Source: a virus. From it: a stretch of 40,207 nt of DNA. The notes beneath the pieces were generated by a model. The model made no database searches and was not told where the DNA came from. It saw nothing but the letters and a program-made list of their open reading frames with translations. Positions 2,765 through 40,178 of this stretch are shown here, one piece after another. The DNA lies in the IMG/VR virus record IMGVR_UViG_3300042486_001136, positions 1 through 40,207 of that record. One strand, given 5' to 3'. Both the position numbers and the translations under genes were made by a program. Position 1 is the stretch's first letter; each line of letters opens with the position of its first letter.

Positions 2765-3027
2765 AATTAGGTTTACTACTAACTACCATATTACTAGCAG
2801 GGTGTACAACTGTGGTGCCTGTTACACAATCATGGCCAGAACCACCAGGTGTGTTAGCACAACAACCTTGCCCGCTGCTGGAAAAATTACAGCCTGATGC
2901 CAAGCTGTCTGATGTTGCCAACACTGTGGTAAAAAATTACACAGAGTACTATACGTGTGCTATTAAACTAGAAGCTTGGCAGCGTTGGTACACCGAGCAG
3001 CAAGTTATACACAAAGGATTGAAATGA
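2761..3027 (+). CDS. o-spanin (Rz1-like) outer-membrane lipoprotein
   Basis: 88 aa. Signal peptide with lipobox LLAGC; Cys15 would be lipidated. The mature region is proline-rich near its start (PVTQSWPEPPG), as in Rz1 proteins, then has a helical part with two Cys. It starts inside the end of the i-spanin gene (ATGA overlap), so the two are translationally coupled. A Gram-negative host with an outer membrane is implied. Confidence 0.8.
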   Translation: MKLGLLLTTILLAGCTTVVPVTQSWPEPPGVLAQQPCPLLEKLQPDAKLSDVANTVVKNYTEYYTCAIKLEAWQRWYTEQQVIHKGLK

Positions 3028-3650
3028 CTGAACTAACGCTACAGCAACTGCAGCAACTTATTCCACGTAATCCGTATGTCAAACAATGGCACGGTGCCCT
3101 TGCACAGCTACTACCAGACTACGAGATCAATACGCCACAACGTATTGCTGCTTTTGTTGCACAGTGTGCACACGAGTCCGGGAACTTTACCGCACTGCGC
3201 GAAAATTTAAACTATCGTTGGCAAACACTGCGTAAGATTTTCCCCAAGTATTTTCCCACAGATGAACTAGCACAGCAGTATGCCGCAATGCCCAACAAGC
3301 AGCAGGCAATTGCTAACCTGGTATATGCAAACCGCATGGGCAATGGACCACCAGAATCTGGTGACGGATATCGCTTTGCAGGCAAGGGCTTAATTCAGCT
3401 AACCGGCAAAGACAACTACACTTGGTTTGCAGCATCGCTGGAAATTAGTGTAGAGGAAGCGGCCGAGTACTTGGAAACATTTGAAGGTGCTGCGCAAAGT
3501 GCTTGCTGGTTTTGGGAAACAAACAAACTCAATCAGTGGGCCGACAAAGGCGATATCCTTACACTAACCAAGCGTATCAACGGCGGCACTATTGGCCTAG
3601 ACGACCGCATCAAACACTATAACCATGCACTACATGTGCTAGGAGCCTAA
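3024..3650 (+). CDS. Endolysin, GH19 family muramidase/chitinase-like
   Basis: 208 aa from the ATG that overlaps the o-spanin stop (ATGA). A longer frame exists upstream but overlaps the o-spanin. GH19 hallmarks: AAFVAQCAHESGNF with Glu51, Glu60 in ALRENLNY (the two likely catalytic acids), and GDGYRFAGKGLIQLTGKDNY at about 113-132. Length fits phage GH19 endolysins that cut peptidoglycan. No signal peptide is visible, so release needs a holin; none is obvious immediately beside it. It completes the lysis cassette with the two spanins. Confidence 0.9.
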   Translation: MTELTLQQLQQLIPRNPYVKQWHGALAQLLPDYEINTPQRIAAFVAQCAHESGNFTALRENLNYRWQTLRKIFPKYFPTDELAQQYAAMPNKQQAIANLVYANRMGNGPPESGDGYRFAGKGLIQLTGKDNYTWFAASLEISVEEAAEYLETFEGAAQSACWFWETNKLNQWADKGDILTLTKRINGGTIGLDDRIKHYNHALHVLGA

Positions 3651-20091: not shown

Positions 20092-20107
20092 ATTATACGA
20101 GACAAAA

Positions 20108-29712: not shown

Positions 29713-30393
29713 TTAAGCTAATGTCCAGCCTTTGTGATGGTTTCTAGTACCTTTTAAAACTTCCGTGAGTTTTGGTTGTAGTAGTCCGTGTTCTTTGGCA
29801 AAATTTGTAACGTGAGTAACTTCATAGACTTTGCCTTCTGGTGATTTTATGGAAGGGTATTGCTTGCCGTAATAGTAAGGTAACTCTTGTTTTATTCGTA
29901 TCAGCTCTGCATATTCGTTAGGACATACTTCTGATAGCCAGCAGTGGCTTTCTAAGGCAGCTATGTGCCTTATTGTATATATAGATATACCTGTTATTTC
30001 CTCTATTTCACGCTTACTTAATGTAGGAGCTTTCTGTATTAATAATCGTAATACTGAAATATACTGCTCATTAGTATACTTTGCAGTACCTGATCTTTCT
30101 CCAAACATAATGGGATTACCAGACTCACTAAGAGTATTAAATCCGTTATTTACGGAGTCAAATATTTCTATAGCTTCTTTTTCAGTACTATTTAGAGCAG
30201 CTATGTTAGCTTCTACCAATAGCTCTAGATTAGGCATTCCGTAGGTATTAAATGCTTGCTGTAATTTAGGTGCAGCTGCATTTCTATTAAAAGCACTTTT
30301 GTGCTTAATAAATCTATCCTCTATATCCAAGGACTGACCTATATAAACCTTATTTGTATAATTAAATCTTAACACATAAATTCCAGTAGTCAT
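29713..30393 (-). CDS. GIY-YIG homing endonuclease between ligase halves
   Basis: 226 aa, a paralogue of the enzyme at 11798-12490. GIY-YIG domain at the start (GIYVLRFNYTNKVYIGQSLDIEDR), middle helical linker with Glu/Asn (EKEAIEIFDSVNNGFNTL) and DNA-binding modules towards the end (YEVTHVTNFAKEHGLLQPK, HHKGWTLA). It is AT-rich relative to the ligase genes. It occupies the exact break between OB fold and zinc finger of LigA, consistent with insertion of a free-standing homing endonuclease that cleaves intact ligase genes. Its promoter lies inside a short inverted repeat that includes the RBS. Confidence 0.9.
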   Translation of the reverse strand: MTTGIYVLRFNYTNKVYIGQSLDIEDRFIKHKSAFNRNAAAPKLQQAFNTYGMPNLELLVEANIAALNSTEKEAIEIFDSVNNGFNTLSESGNPIMFGERSGTAKYTNEQYISVLRLLIQKAPTLSKREIEEITGISIYTIRHIAALESHCWLSEVCPNEYAELIRIKQELPYYYGKQYPSIKSPEGKVYEVTHVTNFAKEHGLLQPKLTEVLKGTRNHHKGWTLA

Positions 30394-32518: not shown

Positions 32519-33316
32519 TTACTTGTTCATCATCAGTGCTGTGAAGTTGCTGGGCACAACAATAGTCTGTACTTTGCCGTTCTTGATACCTTCTGAGATA
32601 TTCAACATGGCTTGTGCTTCCATAAACTTGATAGAACTACCACTGTTGTTGGCCAGTGCTGCCATACGGCGGCTTTCAGCTTCAGCAGTTTTAACTTCAA
32701 CTTCTTTTTGCTTCAATTCGTTCTTGCTTCGAACCAGAGCATTAGCACTTTCAACAACTGTGTCACTTGGAACCACGTTACGAATCATAACTTGACTAAT
32801 CATGATTGCGCCGTCCAACTTTTCTTCGGCAAGGTTGCGAACGATTTCTTCTTGGATGAATCGTTCCATTTCATTACGCTTGTCTGCCATATCCAGTGCT
32901 TCGTACTTGCGAGCTGCCTTGTAGATAGCGTTACGAGCATTTTGAACAATGTAGTTGTACATCACATAAGTATCACCTTTGAACTCAGCGTGGAAGCTTT
33001 TGTTCTTGGTTGAGTACAGTTCAGAAACTTGTTGGGGATTGATGTTGTAGACAACCACAGCATCCAAGTCTTTCATGGTAGAATTGTCAGCAGCCACTGG
33101 AGTCATGTTATCCATAGTAACATTAACATCTTTGATGGGAAAGGTCAATACCGTGCCAACAAGAGTTTGGTTAAAACTGCCGGGCAACAGTTCACCACTT
33201 TGCACTTGTTTGTCAAAACCAACGCGCACGCCGACTTCGCCGGTTTCGATACGAGTACAGCCAGTAGCAGCAACAATAACAGCAGAAAGAGCAAGAAGTT
33301 TAAAAGTATTTTTCAT
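32519..33316 (-). CDS. SPFH/prohibitin-domain lipoprotein
   Basis: 265 aa. Signal peptide with lipobox VAATGC (Cys20), then an SPFH domain (ETGEVGVRVGFDKQVQSGEL, LTFPIKDVNVTMDNMT, DLDAVVVYNINP) and the following helical coiled-coil region with KLDGAIMISQVMIRNVVPSD and AEAESRRMAALANN, as in HflC/prohibitins. It would form oligomeric rings at the periplasmic side of the membrane. HflKC modulates FtsH proteolysis in bacteria; a lipid-anchored phage version might interfere with host protease control or membrane integrity, which is inference. Confidence 0.85.
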   Translation of the reverse strand: MKNTFKLLALSAVIVAATGCTRIETGEVGVRVGFDKQVQSGELLPGSFNQTLVGTVLTFPIKDVNVTMDNMTPVAADNSTMKDLDAVVVYNINPQQVSELYSTKNKSFHAEFKGDTYVMYNYIVQNARNAIYKAARKYEALDMADKRNEMERFIQEEIVRNLAEEKLDGAIMISQVMIRNVVPSDTVVESANALVRSKNELKQKEVEVKTAEAESRRMAALANNSGSSIKFMEAQAMLNISEGIKNGKVQTIVVPSNFTALMMNK

Positions 33317-38948: not shown

Positions 38949-39542
38949 TTATTCTTTGGCTGCGTCAGTTTCCTGTGCGCGAGCTGCCTGCAACTTTTCC
39001 AGTCGCTGTGCAACTTCGTCACTGGTCATCCAAATGTCTTTGTTGTGCAACATGCTGGAAATTTCTTCACTGGTTAAAAAGTCTTTGTATACCGCACTCA
39101 TAAAGTTTTCAGACCAACGACGTTCAAATTGCAGTTGATCGTACATTTCACCGCCTTTGCCAAATGTTCCAGCACTATAGTTGTGAAACATAAAAAGACT
39201 GTGCGGTGTGATTTCGTGTGCATGACCGTGTAAGAAGATCATGGTGGCTGCACTCATGCAAGCGCCTTCAACACTGGTAACAATAGTTGCTTCTGTGTCC
39301 GACATTACTCGCAAGAACTGTAGTGTGGTATACAGGTCACCACCAGGCGAGTTGATATAAATACGAATAGTATCTACTTCGGATGCATTGCGAATGCAAT
39401 CAAACCACTCAATGTATTCTTCAGCATCTAGCACAGGGCCGCTTAGGTAAAACTCATGAAGCTGTGCAACTGGCTTTGAAAAGCTATTTGTGTACTTTTC
39501 AGGTTGAAACAATTTAGGGTCGAGATAATTGTCTTTGTTCAT
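38949..39542 (-). CDS. ClpP-family serine protease
   Basis: 197 aa. ClpP/crotonase fold with the catalytic triad: Ser97 in EGACMSAATMIF, His120 in SLFMFHNYSAG, Asp169 in NKDIWMTSDE, nearly the E. coli numbering (S97, H122, D171); oxyanion region NSPGGDLYTTLQFL. Length equals true ClpP. RBS AAAGGAAC precedes the ATG, directly downstream of the tmRNA. ClpP-like proteins in phages usually mature heads, but no capsid gene is nearby and the neighbour is a tagging RNA, so degradation of tagged proteins is a real alternative. It would need a host ClpX/ClpA. Confidence 0.9.
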   Translation of the reverse strand: MNKDNYLDPKLFQPEKYTNSFSKPVAQLHEFYLSGPVLDAEEYIEWFDCIRNASEVDTIRIYINSPGGDLYTTLQFLRVMSDTEATIVTSVEGACMSAATMIFLHGHAHEITPHSLFMFHNYSAGTFGKGGEMYDQLQFERRWSENFMSAVYKDFLTSEEISSMLHNKDIWMTSDEVAQRLEKLQAARAQETDAAKE

Positions 39543-39552
39543 GCGTTCCTTT

Positions 39553-39636
39553 AATATAATTAAGCACTCTAGCTAGCCGTGGAGCCCTTGCTGTTATGCG
39601 CGGTGGGGTTTTAACCCAAAAGTGCTTAATTATATT
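39553..39636. repeat. 16-bp inverted repeat between tmRNA and clpP
   Basis: Perfect 16-bp arms (39553-39568 and 39621-39636; AATATAATTAAGCACT and its complement) with a 52-base loop. On the minus strand it lies after the tag-bearing piece and right before the clpP RBS, so it could define the 3' end of the tmRNA precursor or shield clpP translation. Confidence 0.85.
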
Positions 39637-39688
39637 TGCCAGCTTATTCTGTTACGAGGGAAGCCGAGCGAGAAACCCTAAGCAGTTT

Positions 39689-39721
39689 TTAAGCTGCTAG
39701 TGCGTACGTTTGATCGTTTGC
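39689..39721 (-). other. ssrA: tmRNA tag reading frame, ANDQTYALAA
   Basis: GCA AAC GAT CAA ACG TAC GCA CTA GCA GCT TAA. The resume codon GCA follows an A-rich stretch as in E. coli (ANDENYALAA). The ending ALAA is the standard ClpX-dependent degradation signal. Confidence 0.95.
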
Positions 39722-39870
39722 GTTTATTTTTGTTTTGTGTCTGCGGCCAGGTAGAGCGTCTTTTTGTGCTATATGCACAACGACTACACTTTGCCCCCAA
39801 CCCTACGGCTTCTACATTGCCGAGTTGTCTACTTTGCTACTCTTAGCCCGGTCGATCCTGTGTCAGGCCC

Positions 39871-39957
39871 ATCAAAAGCATACTACTAGCATATAAGCTA
39901 AAAGAGCCGATCCTTCCAACCGCTGTCGGCCACCCTTTGGGTAGGGTAATATACTTA
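39871..39957 (-). other. Intervening segment of the permuted tmRNA precursor
   Basis: 87 bases between the native CCA end and the native 5' end, removed in mature two-piece tmRNA. It contains short hairpins (ACCC-AAA-GGGT; GCCGA with TCGGC). Confidence 0.8.
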
Positions 39958-40017
39958 TGGTGGACCTGGCGGGCACTGCCCCCGCGTGTCGAACTCTTTT
40001 GGGTCTGCTTCATACAA

Positions 40018-40105
40018 CCATATTTTAGCACACTAACGGACATGCGTCGTAACCACTTTCTAAGCCTGTGCACAGGCAGTGGGCTTCTAGTATGCTAAAA
40101 TATGG
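40018..40105. repeat. 13-bp inverted repeat at the start of the tmRNA precursor
   Basis: Arms 40018-40030 (CCATATTTTAGCA) and 40093-40105 (complement) around 62 bases. The distal arm includes the CCA end of tRNA-Thr, so the tRNA and tmRNA precursor are physically joined in one fold before processing. The loop contains a perfect GCCTGTGCACAGGC palindrome. Confidence 0.8.
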
Positions 40106-40178
40106 TGCCGGTTGCATGAATCGAACACGCGACCTTCTCGTTACAAGGGAGTTGCTCTACCAACTGAGCTAAACCGGC
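40103..40178 (-). tRNA. tRNA-Thr(TGT)
   Basis: 76 nt with encoded CCA: acceptor GCCGGTT/AACCGGC, D arm AGCTCAGTTGGTAGAGC, anticodon loop CTTGTAA (anticodon TGT), T arm GCGTG TTCGATT CATGC. The anticodon stem (ACTCC/CGAGA) has two mismatches, so function is slightly uncertain. Bases 40179-40207 hold no recognised feature. Confidence 0.85.

Follow-up and report, generated by a model that had tools for sequence, protein, structure and literature searches.

A circularly permuted tmRNA gene beside clpP in a predicted T5-like freshwater phage, with candidate structured RNA cassettes at its processing junctions

Introduction

tmRNA rescues stuck ribosomes and marks the unfinished proteins for destruction. 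Circularly permuted genes of this RNA, collected in the Rfam family RF04321 from alphaproteobacteria, betaproteobacteria and cyanobacteria, encode the acceptor half ahead of the coding half and specify an acceptor stem with G3-U70, T and D arms without an anticodon arm, a 10-codon tag ending in ALAA and a P5 hairpin. Phages carry tmRNAs as well: 402 phages with a tmRNA have been reported, with 133 unique structures, of which 53 were called two-piece, 50 of these being aquatic (PMC9004378), the current database holds 79 phage tmRNA sequences (PMC11915505), and huge phages carrying both tmRNA and SmpB are known (PMC7162821). One of the described cases is the Methylophilales phage Melnitz, a lytic aquatic myophage with a complete permuted tmRNA of alpha type, no simple match to a host copy and a glutamine riboswitch alongside (PMC9004378). 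Phage ClpPs with the S14 fold and a Ser-His-Asp triad are known from ICP1 and Demerecviridae (PHROG 1827).

Here, we analyzed a stretch of 40,207 nt (positions 1–40,207 of the linear IMG/VR fragment IMGVR_UViG_3300042486_001136), referred to as the window, which contains a rearranged tmRNA gene of a phage's own. This gene agrees with RF04321 in all the features named above. It differs from the bacterial members in being phage-borne, in an intervening segment of 87 nt (24–42 nt in the beta genomes examined), in an extra helix of 40 nt and in elbow loops of alpha type combined with a body of beta/phage type. In its body, tag type and P5 the gene comes closest, among bacteria, to that of the Rhodocyclaceae and relatives (RF01850; tag ANDERFALAA), which have CCTTGTTACCAAAG in the P5 loop instead of CCTCGTAACAGAAT. 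Compared with Melnitz, the window gene likewise is complete and permuted, but it belongs to a T5-like phage and a beta-side lineage, has clpP as neighbor and is accompanied by other structured elements. Permuted tmRNAs in phages have precedents, as isolate phages have already yielded 53 two-piece tmRNAs (PMC9004378), and their rarity had been overstated in an earlier note on this DNA. What appears to be new, as judged by a limited search of the open-access literature in which no description was found, are the association with ClpP, the mosaic elbow and the cassettes described below; the main text of PMC9004378 does not mention Clp.

Results and Discussion

Genomic Context and Related Loci

The minus strand of the window carries a T5-type block comprising a DNA polymerase (50% identical to that of Vibrio phage pVp-1), SbcC/D, helicases, a primase, RNR, D12/D13, a D5-like regulator and a NAD ligase split into two genes. 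Corresponding replication gene content is found in pVp-1 (Demerecviridae). Judged by its genes, the window stems from a Demerecviridae-like (T5-like) phage, of which it covers a fragment. A GIY-YIG/NUMOD-like homing endonuclease (29713–30393 (−); weak Pfam matches) lies between the two DNA ligase genes, and a SPFH/Band 7 protein (32519–33316 (−); Pfam 3.8e-17) is encoded amid the replication genes.

Retrieval of related sequences by ClpP yielded 72 loci, and RF04321 exceeded its cut-off in 28 of 50 contigs searched and in 5 of 19. Since this first set had been picked by clpP, a second one was built from the conserved P5 loop alone, which gave at least 119 IMG/VR stretches. Some contigs of the P5-based set are 165–174 kb long, among them L226, which carries a gp32-like SSB and an endolysin and therewith looks T4-like. 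Searches among cultured phages gave no match to the window tmRNA, and only short tRNA-like matches to the tmRNA of L038.

The Permuted tmRNA Gene

An Rfam search of the 40-kb window revealed a single permuted tmRNA at 40019–39689 (−), which covers the RF04321 model (tmRNA_permuted) entirely (positions 1–213) and scores 91.3 bits (E 1.7e-16), with the gathering score being 47. The window copy also matches RF01850 (beta_tmRNA), but at 62.9 bits it stays below the gathering score of 84, which is exceeded by the sister phages L003, L011, L017, and L022. Acceptor half, intervening segment and coding half follow each other in this order on one strand (−). The earlier note, made from the sequence alone, had proposed a circularly permuted phage tmRNA and a search with permuted models as its check; the match above the cut-off over the full model and the order seen in the sequence bear this out, and together with the T5-like gene set they support the phage origin and the predicted two-piece product. 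ARAGORN called neither the window tmRNA nor the one of L002, a separate 104-kb contig with the same locus and a 97% relative of the window copy. It detects most of the sister genes, with calls of the homologous gene in about 20 sister phages.

All parts of the locus lie on the minus strand. The acceptor piece, encoded first (39958–40019; RF04321 match, sequence and alignment with sister phages), contains the P2 strand GGTTGT, the T arm (39969–39985) with the alpha-type loop GGCAGTG as identified by sister comparison, the acceptor stem 3′ strand CAGGTCC including U70 (39962–39968) and ACCA (39961–39958). It is followed by the putatively excised intervening segment of 87 nt (39871–39957), which was recognized from its fold and from stems covarying in 30 phages. 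The coding piece (39638–39870; RF04321 and RF01850 matches, alignment) begins with the acceptor stem 5′ strand GGGCCTG including G3 (39864–39870), continues with the D-loop region ACACAGGATCGAC (39844–39863), which by comparison is alpha-type and changed jointly with the T loop, and contains an alignment-defined helical insertion of about 40 nt upstream of the tag (39748–39793), also present in L031, the tag region and the P5 hairpin with loop CCTCGTAACAGAAT, which ends at about 39638. The CCA end at 39958 and the coding-piece start at 39870 are the boundaries claimed before. Sequence and comparison give the acceptor pairs G1-C72, G2-C71, G3-U70, C4-G69, C5-G68, U6-A67, and G7-C66, i.e., the 7-bp stem that had been described. 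The tag was also read correctly: the frame at 39721–39689 (GCA AAC GAT CAA ACG TAC GCA CTA GCA GCT TAA) translates to ANDQTYALAA followed by the stop TAA, and comparison with sister tags supports it. Structured RNA reaches beyond the originally described limits of 39637–40102, with stem-loops at 40106–40017 and 39636–39553.

Directly upstream of the tmRNA lies a tRNA (40103–40178), found by sequence, ARAGORN and similarity to phage tRNA-Thr. ARAGORN assigns it as Tyr(gta), yet its anticodon loop CUUGUAA reads Thr(UGU). The latter reading is also favored by the similarity to phage tRNA-Thr and entails two anticodon-stem mismatches; the situation in L002 is the same. A match at position 20104 of a search query corresponds to this tRNA at 40103 and not to a site at window position 20104.

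Conservation and Proposed Mechanism

In all 36 extracted phage tmRNAs, the window copy included, the acceptor stem is paired at 7 of 7 positions; G1-C72, G2-C71, and G3-U70 are invariant and pairs 4–7 vary on both sides. The strict retention of the seven pairs and of G3-U70, with covariation in pairs 4–7, shows that the gene is under selection. The tags of the sister phages are open 10-codon frames with variable middle residues, nearly all of them ending in ALAA. The gene, its anatomy, the selection on its tRNA-like domain and tag and its phage context are established by these observations. We consider it probable (roughly 85%) that the window carries a genuine ssrA gene in circularly permuted form, which belongs to a T5-like freshwater phage and acts in trans-translation together with host factors. 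An active tmRNA agrees with the full-length RF04321 match, the 36/36 acceptor stems, the tag frames, the covarying stem of the intervening segment, the T5-like gene set and the position beside clpP in 24 related contigs. Points against it are the silence of ARAGORN on the window copy, the divergence of both elbow loops of its tRNA-like domain from the clade, and the fact that neither SmpB nor a ClpX-type AAA_2 ATPase was found in the related contigs searched, which would make the system host-dependent.

The tmRNA would be transcribed together with the tRNA array as a single precursor, from which RNase P would generate the 5′ end of the coding piece and other host RNases would perform the remaining cuts, including those that excise the intervening segment (87 nt) together with the stem-loops on both flanks. 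The acceptor piece (ending at 39958) and the coding piece (starting at 39870) would then be held together by base pairing, charged by the host alanyl-tRNA synthetase via G3-U70 and delivered to stalled ribosomes by host SmpB and EF-Tu. Addition of the tag ANDQTYALAA would recycle the ribosomes and direct the tagged fragments to a ClpX-type protease. We infer the benefit to be that ribosomes are kept working while mRNA breaks down during infection; a putative role as a substitute for the trans-translation of the host, once RNA of the latter is degraded, would be plausible.

The Neighboring clpP Gene

The gene following the tmRNA on the minus strand (38949–39542; 197 aa), with its start codon 146 nt downstream of the tag stop, encodes a ClpP according to Pfam (PF00574; 9e-13, 48.9 bits against a cut-off of 20.2) and PHROG (1e-61). 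The triad Ser97-His120-Asp169 is invariant in 34/34 sequences. A MAFFT alignment had placed a Cys at the position of the catalytic Ser of E. coli ClpP; an ungapped phmmer alignment and a motif check showed Ser. AF2 gave a poor model from the single sequence (pLDDT 43), hence the alignment-based monomer model (pLDDT 86) was used, for which Foldseek returned ClpP at 9.8e-11, with the best PDB matches all being ClpP. Going by this model, the product folds like bacterial ClpP.

In 24 T5-like contigs, a set selected via clpP by the ClpP-based retrieval, the clpP match starts 38–199 nt after the tag stop on the same strand. For the P5-only set, counted only at loci with at least 3.5 kb of flank, clpP follows downstream at a distance of up to 3.5 kb on the tmRNA strand in 13 of 51 loci and on the opposite strand in none, and it lies upstream in 0 of 36 loci (in each case among the matches listed); these counts represent related sequences, not independent events. 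The order tmRNA–clpP is kept in T5-like relatives and partly in the T4-like group, whose ClpPs are 25–26% identical and adjoin an endolysin. In contrast to the window, the cultured T5-like phage that was checked has clpP beside holin/endolysin lysis genes and not beside tRNAs or a tmRNA. A separate S78 prohead protease is present in 9 of 12 related contigs, therefore the window ClpP need not be a head protease, and this assignment was rejected.

The repeated position of the tmRNA upstream of a ClpP gene makes a phage-run tag-and-degrade pathway a testable question. Tentatively, tmRNA and adjacent phage ClpP could form such a unit, in which the tmRNA would tag stalled or host proteins and phage ClpP would degrade them together with host ClpX, for example for amino-acid recycling or the removal of host proteins. 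The same-strand placement in both sets, its extension to the T4-like group, the intact triad next to a separate head protease and the different neighborhood in the cultured phage speak for such a unit, but 38 of the 51 P5-only loci have no clpP nearby (among the matches listed), synteny within one clade could have been inherited once, the endolysin may be the real partner of the T4-like ClpP, and certain tags end in RIAA, RLAA or LVA. The search of related contigs found neither SmpB nor a ClpX-type ATPase of phage origin, so for tagging and unfolding the system would need factors supplied by the host. Tags with RIAA, RLAA, LVA or LTA ends instead of ALAA occur in L022, L071, L192, L214, and L185 as well as in L221, L006, L007, L014, and L178, and recognition by ClpX may be altered for these.

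Structured RNA Cassettes

The phage intervening segments are closed by a stem that starts 0–1 nt after CCA (1 nt in the window) and has on average 9.4 of 10 pairs, compared with 7.9 (maximum 8.3) after swapping partner arms among phages. Short paired intervening segments are also found in several bacterial permuted genes, thus the closing stem may have an old origin; what sets the phages apart is the long structured insert. Scanning 694 kb of loci for long stems enclosing 30–130 nt gave 161, compared with 12 in shuffled sequence, and 44 of the 161 begin within a few bases of the 3′ end of an RNA gene, where 1.4 would be expected. The enclosed cores fall into about 30 recurrent clusters (across L002–L073), a few of which are coding sequence or tRNAs. 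Identical cores are paired with different stems and occur at different sites, namely within the tmRNA gene, upstream and downstream of it, and between tRNAs.

Stem scan and clusters place one cassette on either side of the window tmRNA. The upstream one (40017–40106 (−); core type I) has a stem running from the ACCA at the end of the preceding tRNA to the tmRNA 5′ region, and its core pattern is found in five viral stretches, whereas the downstream one (39553–39636 (−); core type II) has an 18-bp stem and is located between P5 and clpP. Together with the intervening segment, each of the three predicted processing junctions of the tmRNA is thus marked by a long stem that closes a structured RNA cassette of an interchangeable kind; these cassettes might have a role in processing. 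In two aligned cassette families, 14 of 37 and 19 of 33 predicted pairs show pair-keeping changes on both sides. The cassettes of five loci gave no Rfam match at E<2, and known riboswitches or ribozymes were discarded as an explanation. One strong match to the R1 cassette per genome was seen in 14 of 33 contigs; the weak matches present there on either strand turned out to be other long stems and not R1 members. The 49 kb examined of the cultured relative pVp-1 contain none of these cassette spacers. From their sequences, the cassettes look like a candidate undescribed class of structured RNA. A possible parallel are the stable RNAs C and D encoded in the tRNA cluster of T4.

The cleavage of long phage tRNA arrays into their mature parts may be explained by such cassettes. 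It is conceivable, though doubtful, that the tmRNA is the center of a phage arrangement of RNA processing and proteolysis, with covarying-stem cassettes defining its ends and ClpP completing a tag-and-degrade unit. Many spacers of the tRNA array would then also be bounded by cassette stems, and the cassettes would either steer cutting of the precursor or be released as stable small RNAs.

Elbow Mosaic and Origin of the Gene

The window copy, L002, L008, and L009 combine the T loop GGCAGTG with the D loop CAGGATCGA. Alphaproteobacteria likewise have GGCAGTA or GGCGGTA with AGGATCGAC, whereas most sister phages have TTCGACT with GGTTTCGAC. Body, tag and P5 of the window copy are common to the sister phages, and a FastTree tree, used for placement only, puts it among T5-like phage genes on the beta side. 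Comparison of these parts indicates a beta/phage-type body whose T and D loops are of alpha type, a mosaic that could have arisen either by exchange of a small patch or by joint convergence of both loops.

Such elbow loops suggest altered SmpB contacts, and the RNA might accordingly be a decoy or modulator of the host tmRNA, for example by SmpB titration or a change of tag, and not an active rescuer. According to earlier work cited in PMC11915505, a tag-less tmRNA-like RNA of phage DS6A reportedly inhibits the endogenous tmRNA of E. coli. This is unlikely for the window copy, since the clade conserves the tag frame with its stop and ALAA end, and the acceptor end retains G3-U70, none of which a pure decoy would need.

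Bacterial genomes were scanned with a combined tag and P5 pattern, which matched Rhodocyclaceae-type ANDERFALAA genes and two contigs, L084 and L105, of lake MAGs. The latter were rejected as host copies since they look like misbinned phage pieces (both with tRNAs, L105 also with clpP), and therefore no host was assigned. Apart from these two contigs the P5/tag signature is absent from the bacterial genomes searched, and only 9 of 200 Burkholderiales genomes passed the permuted cut-off. A hint at the host lineage, as had been suggested, is thus unsupported: the lineage is phage-borne and near-absent from the bacteria searched, so the tmRNA says little about the host, the more so as alpha-type elbow loops are mixed with a beta/phage-type body. 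Phages often integrate at ssrA and carry ssrA fragments (PMC9004378); a recent capture of host ssrA or a remnant of an integration site, useless to the phage, is nevertheless very improbable for a gene that is complete, common to many T5-like phages, marked by compensatory changes and, in bacteria, met only in the misbinned contigs. The data instead point to a rescue tmRNA kept and diversified in freshwater phages of an uncultured lineage. Chance resemblance or an assembly artefact, to which the missing ARAGORN call could be attributed, is refuted by the E-value, the same locus in L002 and homologues in many contigs.

The two MAGs in question, both from GTDB, are LinL1_bin-0432 (L084) and ErkenSummer_bin-2863 (L105); because of their short phage-like tmRNA contigs, their ssrA annotation may mislead. 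L125 (genome G249, from the same order as Rhodocyclus) has an alpha-type permuted tmRNA on a contig, which may reflect contamination or transfer. L188 contains two tandem permuted tmRNA matches, at 2951–3156 (−) and 2127–2328 (−), the weaker of which comprises the tRNA-like domain only and has an R1-type cassette inside its intervening segment.
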